A stretch of DNA of 64,000 nucleotides from Pseudomonadota bacterium. GTDB taxonomy: Bacteria > Pseudomonadota > Gammaproteobacteria > Steroidobacterales > Steroidobacteraceae. Made by a program: the position numbers and the translations under genes. Location: positions 1 to 64,000 of the forward strand of contig JAGTSG010000014.1 of NCBI GenBank assembly GCA_018261655.1. The letters are read 5' to 3'. The notes beneath the pieces were generated by a model that saw only the letters and a list, made by a program, of their open reading frames with translations, did no database searches and was not told the DNA's origin. Shown here piece after piece: positions 19,853 to 34,339 of this stretch. Each line of letters opens with the position of its first letter. Position 1 is the stretch's first letter.

Positions 19853-20272
19853 TCAGCCCTGCGACCGGTCGCCCGGCGTGACGTGTTCGAGCAGGCGCCC
19901 GACGTGCCAGGCCAGCAGGCGGTCGACGTGCGGCTTCTCGATGAAGTCGAGCGCTCCGGCGCGCATGGCCTTCACGGCGGTCGCGATCTCGCCGTCCGCA
20001 GCGAGCAGGATCACCGGTGAGCGGACCTGGCGCGAGCGCAGCGCAGCGATCAGCTCGATGCCGCTCATGTCCGGCAGCTCCAGCTCGCTGATCACGCAGG
20101 CAGGCGCCGGGCCCGGCGCGTCGAGCATCGCGGCCGCGGTCGTAAAGACCTGCACCTCGGCGCCCAGCGCGGACAGGAGCTCGGCGAGGTGCCGAGTCAT
20201 CGCCTCGTCCGGGTCGACGATGAAGACGGTGGAGACGCCGCGGTCGTCGTTGTTCTCGAGGTCGGCAGGCAT
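19853..20272 (-). CDS. Stand-alone response regulator receiver protein
   Basis: VFIVDPDEAMTRHLAELLSALGAEVQVF, SPVILLAADGEIATAVKAMRAGALDFIEKPH. Confidence 0.8.
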   Translation of the reverse strand: MPADLENNDDRGVSTVFIVDPDEAMTRHLAELLSALGAEVQVFTTAAAMLDAPGPAPACVISELELPDMSGIELIAALRSRQVRSPVILLAADGEIATAVKAMRAGALDFIEKPHVDRLLAWHVGRLLEHVTPGDRSQG

Positions 20273-20354
20273 GGCGCATCGCGGCGCCGTCACGATGGAA
20301 ATAAAGCGGGGGCGGCGCCGGTCGCGGGAGTATCCGGGCGCGTTCAAGCACACC

Positions 20355-20420: not shown

Positions 20421-21038
20421 TCAGTCCTCGCGATGCGCCTCGATCACCATGCGCACCAGGTGGGCGAGCGAGTTCGCTCCCATTTTCTCCATCACGCGCG
20501 CGCGATGGATCTCGACGGTCCGCTGGCTGACGTTCAGGTCGCCGGCGATGACCTTGTTGGCCTTGCCCTGGGTGACCAGTTCCAGCACCTCGCGCTCGCG
20601 GGGCGTGAGCTGCGACATGCGCCGCCGGATCTCGTCGCGCTCGCGCAGCTCGCCGCGCATCTCACGGTCCTTCTCGAGGGCCCGGTTGATGCGGTCGATC
20701 AGGTCCTGGTCGCGGAACGGCTTCTGGATGAAGTCCACCGCGCCCGCCTGCATCGCCTCCACCGCCATCGGCACGTCGCCGTGGCCCGTGATGAACACGA
20801 TCGGCATGATCGAGTGCCGGTCGTTCAGGTGCTGCTGCAGCTCGAGGCCGCTCATCCCGGGCATGCGGATGTCGAGCACGAGGCAGCCCGCCCGGCCCGG
20901 GTCGAACTGGTCGAGGAACTCCTGCGCGGACGCAAAGGTCTCGACCGGAAGCCCGACCGACTTCAGCAGCAGCCTGAGCGAGGTCCGCACGGCCTCGTCA
21001 TCGTCCACGACGAACACTGTCGCCGGCTTTTCCTTCAT
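20421..21038 (-). CDS. fixJ-like: FixJ-family response regulator (receiver + LuxR HTH)
   Basis: VFVVDDDEAVRTSLRLLLKSVGL, GAVDFIQKPFRDQDLIDRI, LTPREREVLELVTQGKANKVIAGDLNVSQRTVEIHRARVMEKM. Confidence 0.92.
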   Translation of the reverse strand: MKEKPATVFVVDDDEAVRTSLRLLLKSVGLPVETFASAQEFLDQFDPGRAGCLVLDIRMPGMSGLELQQHLNDRHSIMPIVFITGHGDVPMAVEAMQAGAVDFIQKPFRDQDLIDRINRALEKDREMRGELRERDEIRRRMSQLTPREREVLELVTQGKANKVIAGDLNVSQRTVEIHRARVMEKMGANSLAHLVRMVIEAHRED

Positions 21039-25671: not shown

Positions 25672-26421
25672 TCAGGATCCGTGCTGGCGCGGTGGCGCGT
25701 GCTCGTGGCCGGCGGGCATGCCGGGACTTGCCGCCCCGTGGCCCGGCCCGTGCGGCGCCAGGAAGCCAAAGGCCGTCCATACCGCGAAGACGATCATCAG
25801 TGCGCCGGCCAGTCGTCGCGTCCTGAGCCCGGAGAGGCTGCGCGTGAACGCCGCGCCGGCCAGCGTTACCGCGAGCATTGCGGGCAAGGTCCCCGCACCG
25901 AAGGCCAGCATCGTGGCGGCCCCGCGGGCCGACGATCCCGACGCGGCGGCGAGCGCGAGCGCCGAGTAGACGAGGCCGCAGGGCAGGAATCCCCAGACCA
26001 GGCCGAGCCCGGCAAAGCGCAGCGGCACCGGGAGCGCCAGCGCGCGCCCGGCCAGCGGCCGCAGGCGGTTCCAGGCCCGGCTGCCAAGCCGCTCGAGCGA
26101 CAGCAGGTCGCGACCGGTGAGCAGCGACAGGCCCATCATGAGCATCAACAGCCCGGCGACCGCGCGCAGCGCGATGGCGAAAGGCCGCACCGGGACCTGC
26201 GCGACGGCGGCGCCCACCAGCGCCCCGACGGCGGCGCCGAGCAGCGCGTAGCTGCCGATGCGGCCGGCATTGAAGGTCAGCGCGGCGAAGGTCGCACGGT
26301 CTGCCGGGGCCTGCGTGCCAGCTGCCGCGGCGATGCCGCCGCACATGCCGAGACAGTGCACGCTGCCGGCCAGGCCTAGGGTCGCGGCAGCTGCCAGCAC
26401 CGGCCAGGCTGAGGCATCCAT
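25672..26421 (-). CDS. Sulfite exporter TauE/SafE family protein (CcoI/CcoS-linked)
   Basis: ATLGLAGSVHCLGMCGGIAAA..FNAGRIGSYALLGAAVG..GLVWGFLPCGLVYSALALA. Confidence 0.88.
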   Translation of the reverse strand: MDASAWPVLAAAATLGLAGSVHCLGMCGGIAAAAGTQAPADRATFAALTFNAGRIGSYALLGAAVGALVGAAVAQVPVRPFAIALRAVAGLLMLMMGLSLLTGRDLLSLERLGSRAWNRLRPLAGRALALPVPLRFAGLGLVWGFLPCGLVYSALALAAASGSSARGAATMLAFGAGTLPAMLAVTLAGAAFTRSLSGLRTRRLAGALMIVFAVWTAFGFLAPHGPGHGAASPGMPAGHEHAPPRQHGS

Positions 26422-26606
26422 CACGTGCCCTGGTCGGGTGGCGCCTCGCCGGGTCGCTTGCCCGACGCGTCGTGGTCGATGAGCACCGACCAGCCAGGCG
26501 TGTCGAGGTCGTCGAACTGGCCGTTGCCGACGGCCCAGAAAAAGGCCCATATGCCGATCACGACCAGAACGAGGCCGAGCGGAATCAGTATGTACAGGAT
26601 GCTCAT
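26421..26606 (-). CDS. ccoS: cbb3-type cytochrome oxidase assembly protein CcoS
   Basis: MSILYILIPLGLVLVVIGIWAFFWAVGNGQFDDLDTPGWSVLIDHD. Confidence 0.95.
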   Translation of the reverse strand: MSILYILIPLGLVLVVIGIWAFFWAVGNGQFDDLDTPGWSVLIDHDASGKRPGEAPPDQGT

Positions 26607-29044
26607 GCGTTAGCGCCTGCTTCCCGGGCCTGTCGCGCCGCGGCCGGCCCCGCCTGGGCGGGGGCCGCGCCACGCAGCCGCAGCGCGTTGCCCACCACCA
26701 GCAACGAGCTGGCGGACATGCCGATGGCCGCGGCCCACGGCGGAATGAACCCGAATGCCGCCAGCGGCAGCGCCAGCACATTGTAGGCGACTGCCCAGAC
26801 GAGGTTCTGCCGGATGATCCCCACGGTCCGGCGCGCGACGGCGACGGACTCCGGCAGCGTGTCGAGTTCGCGGGCCATCAGCACCGCGTCGGCGCTCGTC
26901 TGCGCCAGCGAACTCCCGGCGCCCATGGCGATGGACACGGTCGCCGCGGCCAGCACCGGCGCGTCGTTCACGCCGTCGCCGACCATCACGACCGGCTGAC
27001 CGGAGCCCTGGATCCCGTGGACCAGCGCCAGCTTCTCCTCGGGCCGCAGGCGCGCGCGAAACCGGTCGATGCCGGCGGCACGGGCCGCCGTTGCGACCGC
27101 CGCCTCGTGGTCCCCGCTCGCGATCTCGACCTCGAGGCCCAGGGACCTCAGCCTCGCGACCGCTTCGGCGGCCCCCGGCCGCAGCGCATCGCTGATCTCG
27201 ATCTCCGCCAGCCACTCGCCGTCGCGGCCGAGGTAGGTGTGGGCGTCGTCGGCGTCGCGCGGACCGGCGATCGCGGCGACGAAATCGCGCCTGCCGATGC
27301 GGTAACGCACGCCCTCCAGCCGGCCACCAATGCCGGCACCGGGCTCCGCCTCCACCTGTGTCGCGGCCCGGAGCGGGCCCTCGGGCCTGGCAAAGGCGCG
27401 GGCGATCGGGTGGGTGGACGCCTGCTCGAGGCTCGCCGCGACCGAGAGGCACTCCATCTCCCCCAGGCCCCCGAGCGGCCGGCAGCGCCGCACGACCGGC
27501 TGGCCGAGCGTCAGCGTGCCGGTCTTGTCCATCACCACGCGCCGCGCACGGGCAAGGCCCTCGAGCGCCTCCGCGCGCGTGACCAGCAGGCCCTGGCGTG
27601 CCAGCGAGGCGGTGGCGGCCGTGATCGCGGTGGGTGTCGCCAGCGACAGCGCGCAGGGACAGGTCACCACCAGCACGGCCAGGGTGGCCTCGAACGCGCG
27701 GGCAGGATCCACGATCATCCAGGCACCCGCGACACCGGCGGCGACGAGCAGGACGCCGGCGACGAACCACGAGGCCCAGCGGTCGGCCAGGCGCGCGATG
27801 GCCGGGCGCTCCGTCTGGGCGCGCTCGAGGAGCCTCACGATGCCGGCCAGCACGGTGTCGTGGCCGACGGCCGACACCACGGCACGCGACGGACGACCGA
27901 CGTTGATCGAGCCGCCCAGGACCGCATCCCCGGGGCCGCGCAGCACCGCCGCGGACTCCCCCGTCAGCATCGACTCGTCCACCGACGTCGCGTCCTCCAC
28001 CAGCACACCGTCCGCGGGGAATGCCTCGCCGGCGGCAACCAGCACCGTGTCGCCGGAGCCGAGTTCGGCGACCGCCACGCGCTCCGCGTTGCCGTTCCTC
28101 AACCGGGTCGCGCTGATCGGCTGGAGTCGGAGCAGGGCGTCGCTGGTGCTGCCGGCGCGGTGCCGCGCCGACATTTCCACGAACCGCCCGAGCAGCAGCA
28201 GGAAGGTGAACATCGTCACCGAGTCGAAATAGACTTCGCCGCGGTCGGTGAAGGTGTTCCAGGTGCTGGCCGCCCAGGCCAGCACGAGGCCGAGGGCCAC
28301 CGGCACGTCCATGCCGAGCTGGCGGGCGGCGAGGTTGCGCCATGCGCCCTCGAGGAAGGGCCGGCCGGCGTAGAGCAGCACCGGGGTCGCGACCAGCATG
28401 CTGACCAGCCGCAGGTAGTGGCGCAGCACCGGGTCCATGCCGTCGAAGGCCCCGGCGTAGAGCGCCACGGCAAACATCATGACCTGCATCATGCCGAGCC
28501 CGGCCACCGCCAGGCGCTTCAGGGCCTGGCGCCGTTCACGCTCGGCGACCTCCAGGGTGTCGGCGGCACCCAGCACGTGCGGTCGATAGCCCAGCGAGTA
28601 GATCGAGCGCAGCAGCGACGACAGGGCCGCGTCGCCCGTGCGCCACTCGAGGCGCGCCCGGCCAGTGGCCGGGTTGACGGCGATGCCGGTGACGCCGCTG
28701 CGGCGCTCCAGCCGGCGCTCGACCAGCCAGCCGCAGGCGGCACAGCGCACGCCCTCGAGCAACAGGTTGACGCTCGACAGCTCGCCGTGACGCCGTACCA
28801 GTCGGTCCTGCACCTCGGGCCTGTCGTAGGTCACCCAGGAGTCGTCGCCTTCGGTCCGGGGCCGGGGCGCGGGCGCGTCCCGAAAACGGTAGTAGTCCGT
28901 CAGCCCGGCGTCGCGGATGAACTCGGCCGCGGCCCGGCAGCCTTCGCAGCACATCGGCCGCGCCTCGCCGTCGAGCTTGACCTCGAGTCGCAGGTCGGCA
29001 GGGATGGGTTCGCCGCAGTGGAAGCACTGCGTGGTCGTCGGCAT
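26603..29044 (-). CDS. ccoI: Copper-translocating P-type ATPase CcoI
   Basis: 813 aa; CFHCGEPIP..PMCCEGCRAAAEFI, VRCAACGW, TCPCALSLATP, MDKTGTLTLGQP; next to ccoS. Confidence 0.94.
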   Translation of the reverse strand: MPTTTQCFHCGEPIPADLRLEVKLDGEARPMCCEGCRAAAEFIRDAGLTDYYRFRDAPAPRPRTEGDDSWVTYDRPEVQDRLVRRHGELSSVNLLLEGVRCAACGWLVERRLERRSGVTGIAVNPATGRARLEWRTGDAALSSLLRSIYSLGYRPHVLGAADTLEVAERERRQALKRLAVAGLGMMQVMMFAVALYAGAFDGMDPVLRHYLRLVSMLVATPVLLYAGRPFLEGAWRNLAARQLGMDVPVALGLVLAWAASTWNTFTDRGEVYFDSVTMFTFLLLLGRFVEMSARHRAGSTSDALLRLQPISATRLRNGNAERVAVAELGSGDTVLVAAGEAFPADGVLVEDATSVDESMLTGESAAVLRGPGDAVLGGSINVGRPSRAVVSAVGHDTVLAGIVRLLERAQTERPAIARLADRWASWFVAGVLLVAAGVAGAWMIVDPARAFEATLAVLVVTCPCALSLATPTAITAATASLARQGLLVTRAEALEGLARARRVVMDKTGTLTLGQPVVRRCRPLGGLGEMECLSVAASLEQASTHPIARAFARPEGPLRAATQVEAEPGAGIGGRLEGVRYRIGRRDFVAAIAGPRDADDAHTYLGRDGEWLAEIEISDALRPGAAEAVARLRSLGLEVEIASGDHEAAVATAARAAGIDRFRARLRPEEKLALVHGIQGSGQPVVMVGDGVNDAPVLAAATVSIAMGAGSSLAQTSADAVLMARELDTLPESVAVARRTVGIIRQNLVWAVAYNVLALPLAAFGFIPPWAAAIGMSASSLLVVGNALRLRGAAPAQAGPAAARQAREAGANA

Positions 29045-29048
29045 GGAG

Positions 29049-29561
29049 TCAGGATACCGCAGGCGCGGCCAGCCGGATCCCGGCCGCCGTATCCCGGAAG
29101 TCCCCCTTCAGGCGCCAGCCGCGATCGGGCGGCGTGATCTCGACGTACCAGTGCCCGGGCGGCAGCGGCTCGGTCGAGCCAACAAAGGCCGCGTCAACGC
29201 GCCGCAGGGTGATCATCCGGTCGAGTTCCGCGCGGGTCGCGTGCGACAGCACCAGCACCAGCCCGTCCGGCGGCTCACCCCGTGCCAGCGAGAGCTGCAC
29301 GCGGACGGACCCCGACACCGCATCGACCGCGAGCGTTGCCTCCGCGCCGATCGCCGCGGCCGCCGCATCGCGGCCCGGGTCGGTGTAGATCGCGAGCCCG
29401 TCCTTGCGGAAGTCGTCGCGCACGACGACGTCGCTCGACTTCACGGCGATGGCGAGCGTCGCGAAGGCGGCGACCACGACCGCGAGCGGCAGGCCCACGA
29501 CGAACCACATCAGCGGGACGCTGCTCCAGCGCGTGGCGGGGCGACCGTCCGGCGGGGTCAT
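29049..29561 (-). CDS. ccoH: FixH family protein (CcoH)
   Basis: W..VPLMWFVVGLPLAVVVAAFATLAIA..DDFRKDGLAIY; position between ccoG and ccoI. Confidence 0.85.
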   Translation of the reverse strand: MTPPDGRPATRWSSVPLMWFVVGLPLAVVVAAFATLAIAVKSSDVVVRDDFRKDGLAIYTDPGRDAAAAAIGAEATLAVDAVSGSVRVQLSLARGEPPDGLVLVLSHATRAELDRMITLRRVDAAFVGSTEPLPPGHWYVEITPPDRGWRLKGDFRDTAAGIRLAAPAVS

Positions 29562-30943
29562 GGCCCGAGGAACCGCGCGGCGCGCGAAGCCGTCAGGGCC
29601 GGGTCGTCCGCCGCGGTGATCGCGAAACGGATCTCGTGGCTGCCGCTGGCGGAGCCGCCCGGCACGCGCACCCGGACCGGCAGCGAGTGGACCTCGCCAG
29701 GGCCTACCCGGTGTCCGGACCCGGCTGCGGCGCCCGCCTCGCCGGCCTCGAGCACCAGGCCGGGCAGGCCGCTCGCGGCCAGCGAGTAGGTGTGCGCCGT
29801 GGTGTCCTTGTTGAGGATGCGCAGCAGGTACACGTTCTCGATGCTGCCGTCGGGCAGCGTGCGGTAGAGGGCGTTGCGGTCGCGCATGACGTCGAGGCCG
29901 ACGGGCGTCCGCAGCGAGATCGAGACGAAGAATCCGACGATGAGCGCCGCCAGCAGCGCGCCATAGACGATCATCCGCGGCCGCACGACGTGGCTGCCGC
30001 CGCCTTCCAGCGCCTTCTGCGAGGTGTAACGGATCAGGCCACGCGGGTAACTCATCCGGTCCATCACGTCGTCGCAGGCGTCGATGCAGGCGGCGCAGGC
30101 GATGCACTCGTACTGCAGTCCCTCGCGGATGTCGATGCCGGTGGGGCAGACCTGCACGCAGGCCTTGCAGTCGACGCAGTCACCGAGCCCCTTGCTCTGC
30201 GGGTCCACGTTCCGCGCCCGCGCGCCGCGCGGCTCGCCGCGCCTGGTGTCGTAGGCGATGATCAGGGTGTCGCGGTCGAACATCGCGCTCTGGAAGCGCG
30301 CATAGGGACACATGTACTTGCACACCTGCTCGCGCATGAAGCCGGCGTTGCCCCAGGTGGCGAAGCTGTAGAACAGCACCCAGAAGGTCTCCCAGGGACC
30401 GGTGGACAGCCCCAGCACCTTGCCCGCGAGCTCCTGGACCGGCGTGAAGTAGCCGACGAAGGTGAACCCGGTCCACAGCGCGAACAGCACCCACACGAGG
30501 TGCTTGCCGCCCTTGCGCAGGACCTTGTCCGCGCTCCAGGGCGATCGGTCCAGCTTGATGCGCCTGTTGCGGTCGCCCTCGAACCAGCGCTCGATCCGGA
30601 TGAAGACCTCGGTCCATACCGTCTGCGGGCAGGCAAAGCCGCACCACAGCCGCCCGGCCAGCGCCGTGAAGAAGAACAGCGACAATCCCAGGATGATCAG
30701 CAGCCAGGTGAGATAGAAGAAGTCCTGAGGCCAGAAGACGAGGCCGAAGACGTAGAACTTTCGCGCTGGCAGGTCGAACAGCACGGACTGGCGGTCGTCC
30801 CAGGAGACCCACGGCAGCACGTAGTAGAGGCCGAGCAGCGCCCAGACCGAGAGGTTCCGCAGGCGCTGGAAGCGCCCGTCCGTTTCGCGGGGATAGATCT
30901 TCTTGTGGGCCTCGTAGAACGAGGCCGGCTTCGCTACCGTCAT
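29558..30943 (-). CDS. ccoG: Cytochrome c oxidase accessory protein CcoG (FixG)
   Basis: WCGFACPQTVWTEVFIRIERW, KYMCPYARFQSAMFD, GDCVDCKACVQVCPTGIDIREGLQYECIACAACID. Confidence 0.95.
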   Translation of the reverse strand: MTVAKPASFYEAHKKIYPRETDGRFQRLRNLSVWALLGLYYVLPWVSWDDRQSVLFDLPARKFYVFGLVFWPQDFFYLTWLLIILGLSLFFFTALAGRLWCGFACPQTVWTEVFIRIERWFEGDRNRRIKLDRSPWSADKVLRKGGKHLVWVLFALWTGFTFVGYFTPVQELAGKVLGLSTGPWETFWVLFYSFATWGNAGFMREQVCKYMCPYARFQSAMFDRDTLIIAYDTRRGEPRGARARNVDPQSKGLGDCVDCKACVQVCPTGIDIREGLQYECIACAACIDACDDVMDRMSYPRGLIRYTSQKALEGGGSHVVRPRMIVYGALLAALIVGFFVSISLRTPVGLDVMRDRNALYRTLPDGSIENVYLLRILNKDTTAHTYSLAASGLPGLVLEAGEAGAAAGSGHRVGPGEVHSLPVRVRVPGGSASGSHEIRFAITAADDPALTASRAARFLGP

Positions 30944-31266
30944 CCGCCCGGACCACGGGGCTGCGGTCGCGCCGTGCGCACCAGGTACAGGGTCAGCGCG
31001 CTCGACAGCGTGCAGATCGCCCAGAAGAAGAAGAAACCGACGGCGTAGCCCGCCATCTTGTGGGTCAGCCAGTTGGGAGGCATCGCGCCTTCGCCGAACA
31101 CCGACGGATCGAAGAAGGCGAAGAAGAACATCGTCGCGACCGACGCGGCCAGGAACGACGGCCACAGCGTGACCGCCATGTCCTGCGCCAGCTGGCTCCA
31201 GGCGACCGGCCCCGGGTCGGCTTCCCCGGGATCGTCCACGCTGTCGGGTTGCGGGTCAGACTGCAT
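30940..31266 (-). CDS. Conserved-position unknown 2-TM protein between ccoP and ccoG
   Basis: 108 aa; SFLAASVATMFFFAFFDPSVFGEGAMPPNWLTHKMAGYAVGFFFFWAICTLSSALTLYLVR; overlaps both neighbours. Confidence 0.7.
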   Translation of the reverse strand: MQSDPQPDSVDDPGEADPGPVAWSQLAQDMAVTLWPSFLAASVATMFFFAFFDPSVFGEGAMPPNWLTHKMAGYAVGFFFFWAICTLSSALTLYLVRTARPQPRGPGG

Positions 31267-32133
31267 CGGCCGCTGCTGCCTCGGGAGCTCCTTCCGCCGC
31301 CGCGTCCGCGGCCGGCGCCTCCGCCTCGGGCGGCGGTGCGGGCGGCTGGTAGGGTGGCGCGAGGCTCAGGACGTAGGCGGCGAGCAGCCGCACCTTCGGT
31401 TCGCCGAGCAGCTCGAGCTGCGCGGGCATCTGGTTGTTGCGGCCGTTGACGACGCCGTAGCGGATCTCGGCGGCCGTGCCCTCGTACAGCCAGGTGTCGT
31501 CGGTCAGGTTGGGCGCGCCGACGGCCTGCATGCCCTTGCCGTCCAGGCCGTGGCACGACGCGCAGAACATCTCGAACTTCGGCCTGCCGGCGGCGGCCAG
31601 GTCGGCAGGCGCCTGCAGGCCCGACAGCGACAGCACGTAGGCCACCACCTCCTCGACGCCCTGCGCGCCGAGCGCCTCGCCCCAGGGCGGCATCACCCCG
31701 TTGCGAACATGGCGCAGTTGTTGGCGTAGAGGTTGCGCGCCACGCGCATCGCATCCGGGTCCTGTCCGAGCTGCTCGAGGCTCATCTCCGCGAAGCGCGC
31801 GTAGACCGGCGCAGCGGCGGCCTCGGCCGCGTCCACCTGCTCCTGCCACTGCGCCTCCTGCGTCCAGCCCTTCGTGCCCTGCCAGCTGCCCAGGCCGGGG
31901 TAGAGGACGAGGTAGACGATGCTGAAGGCGACCGAGCCGTAGAACAGCCACAGCCACCAGCGCGGGAGGGGGTTGTTGAACTCCCGCAGGTTGCCGTCCC
32001 AGGTGTGCCCGGTGGTTTCCGCGTCCGGCTGCTCCGCCGGCGACCGCTTCGAGGTCACCCACAACAGCCACAGGGCCCCGACGACGTTGATCGCCGTCAG
32101 GATCACGATGAACAGGGTCCAGCCCGTAGTCAT
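31256..32133 (-). pseudogene. ccoP: cbb3 oxidase diheme subunit CcoP, apparently disrupted by a small deletion/frameshift
   Basis: Frame 1 (31693-32133): MTTGWTLFIVILTAINVVG...FNNPLPRWWLWLFYGSVAFSIVYLVLYPG...NLYANNCAM|FATG*; frame 2 continues (V)RNGVMPPWGEALGAQGVEEVVAYVLSL...EMFCASCHG...; ~35 codons incl. first CxxCH completion missing at ~31707. Confidence 0.85.
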
Positions 32134-32134
32134 C

Positions 32135-32293
32135 TTACTTGTCCTCGTTCTTGTCCGAATCTTCTTCGAGCGGCATGCGGGCGGCCTGGTCGAACTTCTG
32201 CTTCTGTCGCCCGCTCCACGCCCACCAGACCACGCCCACGAAGGCGAGCAGCGCGAGCACCGTCGCCAGGCCCTGCAGGGTTCCCGGGTCCAT
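32135..32293 (-). CDS. ccoQ: cbb3-type cytochrome c oxidase subunit CcoQ
   Basis: 52 aa; LATVLALLAFVGVVWWAWSGRQKQKFDQAARMPLEED. Confidence 0.9.
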   Translation of the reverse strand: MDPGTLQGLATVLALLAFVGVVWWAWSGRQKQKFDQAARMPLEEDSDKNEDK

Positions 32294-32295
32294 CC

Positions 32296-32904
32296 CTACT
32301 TCCAGGTCTTGGATGCGGTGCCGAGGCCCTGCAGGTAGGCGATCAGCGCCTGCATCTCGGTCTTGCCCGCCACGTCGCCGGCCGCCGCTGCGACCTGCTC
32401 GTCCGTATACGGGACGCCGACCGCGCGCAGGGCCTGCATCTTGTCGCCGGTCAGCGAGCCGTCGACGGCCCGTTCGTCGAGCCACGGGAAGCCGGGCATG
32501 TTCGACTCCGGCACCACGTCGCGCGGGTTGAGCAGGTGGATCCGGTGCCACTCGTCCGAGTAGCGGCCCCCGACACGGGCGAGGTCGGGCCCCGTGCGCT
32601 TCGAGCCGAACTGGAACGGATGGTCGTACACCGACTCGCCTGCGAGCGAGTAGTGGCCGTAGCGCTCCGTCTCGGCCCGCAGCGGGCGGATCATCTGCGA
32701 GTGGCAGACGTAGCAGCCCTCGCGGACGTAGATGTCACGCCCCTCGAGTTCCAGGGCGCTGTAGGGCTCCACGCCCGGCGCCGGCTCGGTGACCTGGCCG
32801 GAGAAGTAGAGCGGTACGATTTCCGCCAGCCCGCCGAAGCTGATCGCCACGGCCGTCAGCACGCCGAGCAAGCCGACGTTCTTTTCGATCTTCTCGTGAT
32901 TCAT
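32296..32904 (-). CDS. ccoO: cbb3-type cytochrome c oxidase subunit II CcoO
   Basis: [71 protein letters not shown]. Confidence 0.96.
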
Positions 32905-32914
32905 GCTGCCACCC

Positions 32915-34339
32915 TCAGGCCGCTGCCGGCGCCATCACCGGCACGTCCTTCCCGGACGAGCCTGCGGCGATGGTTTTCCAGACGTTGTAGACCATGATGA
33001 ACATGCCGGAGAGCACCAGCAGTCCGCCGATGAGCCTCACCCCGTAGTACGGGTAGGTCGCGGCCAGCGACTCCACGAAGGTGTAGGTCAGCGTGCCGTC
33101 GTCGTTCGTGGCACGCCACATCAGGCCCTGCATCACGCCGGCGATCCACATCGAGGCGACGTAGAGCACGATGCCGATCGTCGTCGTCCAGAAGTGCACG
33201 TCGATCAGCCTGGTGGAGTACATCGCGGTCTGGCCGTAGAGGCGCGGGATCAGCGCGTACATGCAGCCGATGGAGATCATCGCCACCCAGCCCAGCGCGC
33301 CGGAGTGGACGTGGCCGATGGTCCAGTCGGTGTAGTGCGACAGCGCGTTGACCGTCTTCACGGACATCATCGGTCCCTCGAAGGTCGACATTCCGTAGAA
33401 CGACAGCGACACGATCATGAACTTCAGGATCGGGTCGGTGCGCAGTTTGTGCCAGGCGCCCGACAGGGTCATGATGCCGTTGATCATGCCGCCCCAGGAC
33501 GGCGCGATCAGGATGATGGAGAACACCATGCCGAGGGTCTGCGCCCAGTCCGGCAGCGTCGTGTAGTGCAGGTGGTGCGGTCCGGCCCACATGTAGATGG
33601 CGACCAGCGCCCAGAAGTGCACCACCGACAGGCGGTAGGAGTAGACCGGCCGCTCGGCCTGCTTCGGGACGAAGTAGTACATCATCCCGAGGAAGCCCGC
33701 GGTCAGGAAGAAGCCCACCGCGTTGTGCCCGTACCACCACTGCACCATGGCGTCCACCGTCCCGGCATAGACGGAGTAGGACTTGGTCAGCGTCACGGGG
33801 ACGGCCATGCTGTTGCCGATGTGCAGCACCGCGATGGTGATGATGTAGGCGGCGAAGAACCAGTTGGCGACGTAGATGTGCTTGACCTTGCGCTTGACCA
33901 TCGTGCCGAAGAACACCACGCCGTAGGTGACCCAGACGACGGCGATCAGCACGTCGATCGGCCATTCCAGCTCGGCGTATTCCTTGGACGTCGTGATCCC
34001 GAGCGGAAGCGTGATCGCGGCGAGCACGATGATCAGCTGCCAGCCCCAGAAGGTGAACGCGGCCAGCCGGTCGCCGAAGAGGCGGGTGTGGCAGGTCCGC
34101 TGCACGACGTAGTAGGACGCGGCGAACAGCGCGGAGCCGCCGAAGGCGAAGATCACCGCGTTGGTGTGCAGCGGCCGCAGGCGGCTGTAGGTCAGCCAGG
34201 GCACGTCGAGGTTCAGCGCCGGGAACATCAGCTGGGCCGCGATGATCACGCCGACCAGCATCCCGACGATGCCCCAGATGATGGTCATGATGGCGAACTG
34301 CCGCACGACCTTGTCGTTATAGGTCTCGACCCGTTCCAT
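32915..34339 (-). CDS. ccoN: cbb3-type cytochrome c oxidase subunit I CcoN
   Basis: 474 aa from [63 protein letters not shown]. Confidence 0.96.

Follow-up and report, generated by a model that had tools for sequence, protein, structure and literature searches.

ccoP in a draft cbb3 oxidase locus lacks a net 106 nt that include part of the first heme c site

A cbb3 locus with a split ccoP

The window analysed here, a 64,000-nt stretch of DNA, is part of a 95,098-base contig (C33) in a metagenome-type draft assembly of 122 contigs and 2.22 Mb that is 74.6% complete. It carries a cbb3 oxidase locus in the order ccoNOQP-ccoG-ccoH-ccoI-ccoS, which is complete apart from a broken ccoP, the neighbouring cco genes all being open (Table 1). 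We named ccoN, ccoO, ccoQ, ccoG and ccoI from their Pfam matches, and ccoH and ccoS by position and appearance only. ccoP stands last in the ccoNOQP group, with ccoN, ccoO and ccoQ intact upstream of it. Between ccoP and ccoG lies a 108-aa ORF (30940-31266, minus strand) with the look of a membrane protein, which starts within the end of ccoP and gave no match in a Pfam search. Elsewhere in the window, two response-regulator ORFs resembling FixJ lie next to each other at 19853-20353 and 20421-21038, both on the minus strand, and the first of these (166 aa) seems to have no DNA-binding domain.

Table 1. Positions in the window of the two parts of ccoP, the junction between them and other genes of the cbb3 locus
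Feature	Position	Strand	Description
ccoS-like small ORF	26421..26606	-	from the ORF list; named by sequence appearance and position only
ccoI, copper-type P-ATPase	26603..29044	-	intact; Pfam E1-E2_ATPase, ATPase-cat_bd and HMA
ccoG	29558..30949	-	intact; Pfam Fer4_18 and FixG_C
ccoP 3' part	31256..31726	-	other frame; RNGVMPPWG..., CASCH; Cytochrome_CBB3 (PF13442), 54.1 bits
deletion junction	31706..31707	-	net 106 nt absent versus three congeners; join without microhomology
ccoP 5' part	31693..32133	-	146-aa ORF; FixP_N (PF14715), 85.8 bits; ends NNCAMFATG, then stop
ccoQ	32135..32299	-	intact; Pfam FixQ, 38.1 bits
ccoO	32296..32904	-	intact, 202 aa; Pfam FixO, 271.5 bits
ccoN	32915..34339	-	intact, 474 aa; Pfam COX1, 403.2 bits; same length as ccoN of G005

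The ccoP gene runs on the minus strand from 32133 to 31256 and, instead of forming a single ORF, is split by a net loss of 106 nt into two frames with one in-frame TGA. Read on that strand, the DNA at the join is ...AACAACTGCGCCATGT followed directly by TCGCAACGGGGTGATGCCGCCCTGG... The first frame retains the FixP_N membrane anchor and ends within what should be the first c-type heme site, where NNCAM gives way to FATG and a stop, so that no CxxCH is formed. The C-terminal frame reads RNGVMPPWGEALGAQGVEEVV...CASCH... and ends at a stop at 31256; this second c-type heme site is thus intact but out of frame. Together the two pieces contain one FixP_N and one Cytochrome_CBB3 domain, as against two Cytochrome_CBB3 domains in an intact relative.

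Extent of the loss and the record in related genomes

The nearest relatives of the window among the genomes compared are metagenome-assembled genomes of Gammaproteobacteria, including one with the label Steroidobacteraceae. In the three nearest relatives of the locus (L031, L032 and L094, from genomes G005, G004 and G003), CcoP is uninterrupted and reads NNCA[M/A]CHGSDARGA.GFPNL...YGR.G.MPPWG through the affected region, with NHCAM in L094. Where these congeners carry 36 codons, the window has 2 nt, so that a net 106 nt are absent between 31707 and 31706, a number that leaves a remainder of one on division by three. A blastn alignment across the join accordingly places a gap of 1 in the query against a gap of 107 in the subject. 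The missing stretch extends from the second Cys of the first CxxCH to just before RNGVMPPWG, sparing the first Cys and taking the second Cys and the His. On either side the gene remains readily alignable, with 86% identity to residues 1-149 of G005 CcoP in the 5' part and 77% identity to residues 171-320 in the 3' part.

A wider comparison gave the same picture. Both CxxCH motifs are kept in 107 of the 107 complete CcoP ORFs from the 109 related loci that we fetched, a set in which some genomes are counted twice because they appear in two collections; the other two loci are cut by contig ends. Given this uniformity, the lesion belongs to one genome and is not a variant of the family, and we rejected a natural lineage with single-heme CcoP among the ORFs compared. 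No congener that has a ccoP carries the join. These results bear out much of the initial annotation, which had described an otherwise complete cbb3 locus (the ccoNOQ, ccoG, ccoH-like, ccoI and ccoS-like ORFs are indeed all open) and a deletion of 105-110 bp that is not a multiple of three, with the first heme site gone and the second preserved. The second ccoNOQP locus that it suggested seeking was not found in this 74.6% complete assembly, and neither was a second intact ccoP or a ccoP fragment.

The two halves of ccoP also retain a record of selection. Upstream of the break, dN on the window branch was 0.020, compared with 0.046 and 0.090 on the branches of the other two lineages (G005 and G004), and downstream it was 0.036, compared with 0.071 and 0.140; the window branch is therefore the lowest in both halves, although these values are rough, given that dS is high (about 0.6-0.7 for pairs that include the window) and that in an unrooted three-way split the G004 branch is inseparable from the root. 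The substitution pattern suggests that purifying selection has acted on ccoP practically up to the present, with no sign of decay. Such a pattern argues that the lesion is very young, that it is a polymorphic or minority allele, or that it is not real; a long-fixed loss is not indicated.

The junction itself is clean. We found no microhomology at 31706/31707, no repeated 10-14-mers in the window that cross the join and no Ns, which makes a repeat-driven collapse by the assembler an unlikely cause; as the two sides of the join share neither k-mers nor microhomology, we rejected that route. With GGT as the ancestral Gly codon, the join (ATGT followed by TCGC) would be a simple deletion without any overlap, whereas an ancestral GGC, the codon of the relatives, would mean that a T had been gained. 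A hairpin-driven deletion was likewise rejected, because the corresponding segment of a relative folds no better than shuffled sequences (z = 0.56).

To judge the contig as a whole, we set it beside the contigs of two congeners that are syntenic with it. Against G005, for which about 73 conserved ORFs (28,700 aa) could be compared along 95 kb, the only convincing frame break is the one in ccoP; we took the remaining flagged splits and stops, not all of which were inspected by hand, to be ORFs that are antisense or off-frame, or to fall where genes meet. An isolated lesion on a contig of this length indicates that the sequence is not generally error-ridden, and we rejected an error-prone contig as the explanation.

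Origin and consequences of the break

Two readings of the break are close to equally likely, and we favour only slightly the one in which the contig carries a null ccoP allele, produced by a recent non-homologous deletion of net 106 nt, which we rate at even chances. In the other, which we place a little below even, the organism's ccoP is intact and the break is an artefact of assembly, library preparation or sequencing, the consensus having followed a read that is chimeric or carries a deletion, a faulty join, or a variant from a minority strain. The lack of overlap at the join and the clean sequence around it speak for a real deletion, present in some templates at least: k-mer collapse does not give a clean zero-overlap deletion, there is no N-gap, the contig has no similar lesions elsewhere and the bin holds no separate intact ccoP copy or fragment. 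On the other side, the intact selection record and the draft status of the source favour an artefact or a minority variant. Purifying selection extends right up to the break, the lone lesion happens to hit the sole heme-copper oxidase in a metagenome-type draft, and assembly errors, with coverage and the assembler as their causes, account for many seeming pseudogenes in bacteria (PMC11017572). The initial annotation had left the choice between a real lesion and an assembly deletion undecided, and the evidence still stands there.

Other explanations fare much worse. It is very unlikely that the organism uses a split or frameshifted one-heme CcoP. The TGA overlaps an ATG (GGGGTGATG), which makes reinitiation possible on paper, GGG-TGA would in principle permit -1 re-pairing, and both pieces are under strong constraint; but two CxxCH motifs are present in every complete CcoP ORF compared, the cytochrome domain is cut partway through (a Cys without its partner Cys or His, with the Met end kept) and not at its boundary, an export signal is absent from the C-terminal piece, and the congeners lack the join. 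Programmed frameshifting, which the initial annotation had named as something that could refute a lesion, would not restore a full-length protein. The missing 36 codons, and with them the first CxxCH, are encoded in no frame of the surviving DNA, and the site is not conserved as a recoding signal, the congeners reading GGC there in an uninterrupted frame. As no frame supplies heme 1, we rejected both frameshifting and reinitiation as a rescue. Slightly less probable still is an older, decaying pseudogene in a dispensable cbb3 locus: the ccoP frame is indeed broken, but the adjoining cco genes are intact, the window branch has a low dN and there is no second lesion. We give the least credence of all to the idea that a cbb3 oxidase functions, in this one species, with two overlapping frames supplying a split CcoP that carries a single heme.

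If the null-allele reading is correct, the net 106-nt deletion would have struck the first cytochrome c domain in a ccoNOQP-GHIS locus whose remainder looks functional, and translation would yield a membrane anchor with a heme-less stump. Heme is attached to c-type cytochromes in the periplasm, so a downstream piece reinitiated at TGATG, having no export signal, would receive none. CcoN, CcoO and CcoQ would still be made, and with electron entry through CcoP lost, the cbb3 oxidase would be expected to be inactive or poorly assembled. Whereas the sequence facts are observed, these functional effects are deduced from established CcoP biology. The 'altered oxidase function' raised in the initial annotation is unlikely, a null CcoP being expected and not a modified one. 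In Neisseria, where cbb3 is the sole oxidase, CcoP is essential for microaerobic growth, and in some organisms active complexes have been seen without CcoP (PMC2924362).

Such a loss would be costly here, because cbb3 is the only heme-copper oxidase in the 74.6% complete assembly. G004 and G005 have three and four matches, respectively, to the heme-copper oxidase family (PF00115), and further members may simply be missing from the incomplete draft. The assembly also contains one cytochrome bd (G000:C95), which could cover respiration if cbb3 were lost, possibly together with an aa3 oxidase that was not recovered in the draft.

Relation to known CcoP variants and apparent pseudogenes

The ccoP break is biologically ordinary and needs no new mechanism. 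As ccoP shows no decay and its relatives are intact, we caution against inferring loss of cbb3 respiration when a draft genome shows one clean break, standing alone, in a core respiratory gene. Were the deletion real, it would represent a strain-level loss of high-affinity respiration, of modest ecological interest.

Three known cases frame this comparison. Canonical diheme CcoP/FixP, such as CcoP1 of Pseudomonas stutzeri (PDB 3MK7), has the same anchor at the N-terminus and the same second heme c domain, and its gene agrees in operon position and order; the window gene differs in its broken frame and in the absence of the stretch matching residues of about 146-181, which on that structure make up most of the first heme domain and stop just short of the RxxxMPxWG segment. 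Loss or truncation of parts of CcoP is known in nature (PMC2924362). The truncated CcoP of Neisseria meningitidis has naturally lost a heme domain to a lesion of its reading frame in one lineage, as would be the case here; there, however, a nonsense SNP fixed in the species removes only an accessory third heme and leaves a working diheme CcoP (PMC2924362), whereas the window ccoP loses the core first heme. Finally, the spurious pseudogenes of draft assemblies are likewise conserved genes that evolve as if functional yet show a lone break in frame (PMC11017572), but the break described here is a clean 106-nt deletion, as opposed to an indel of a few bases or one internal stop codon.
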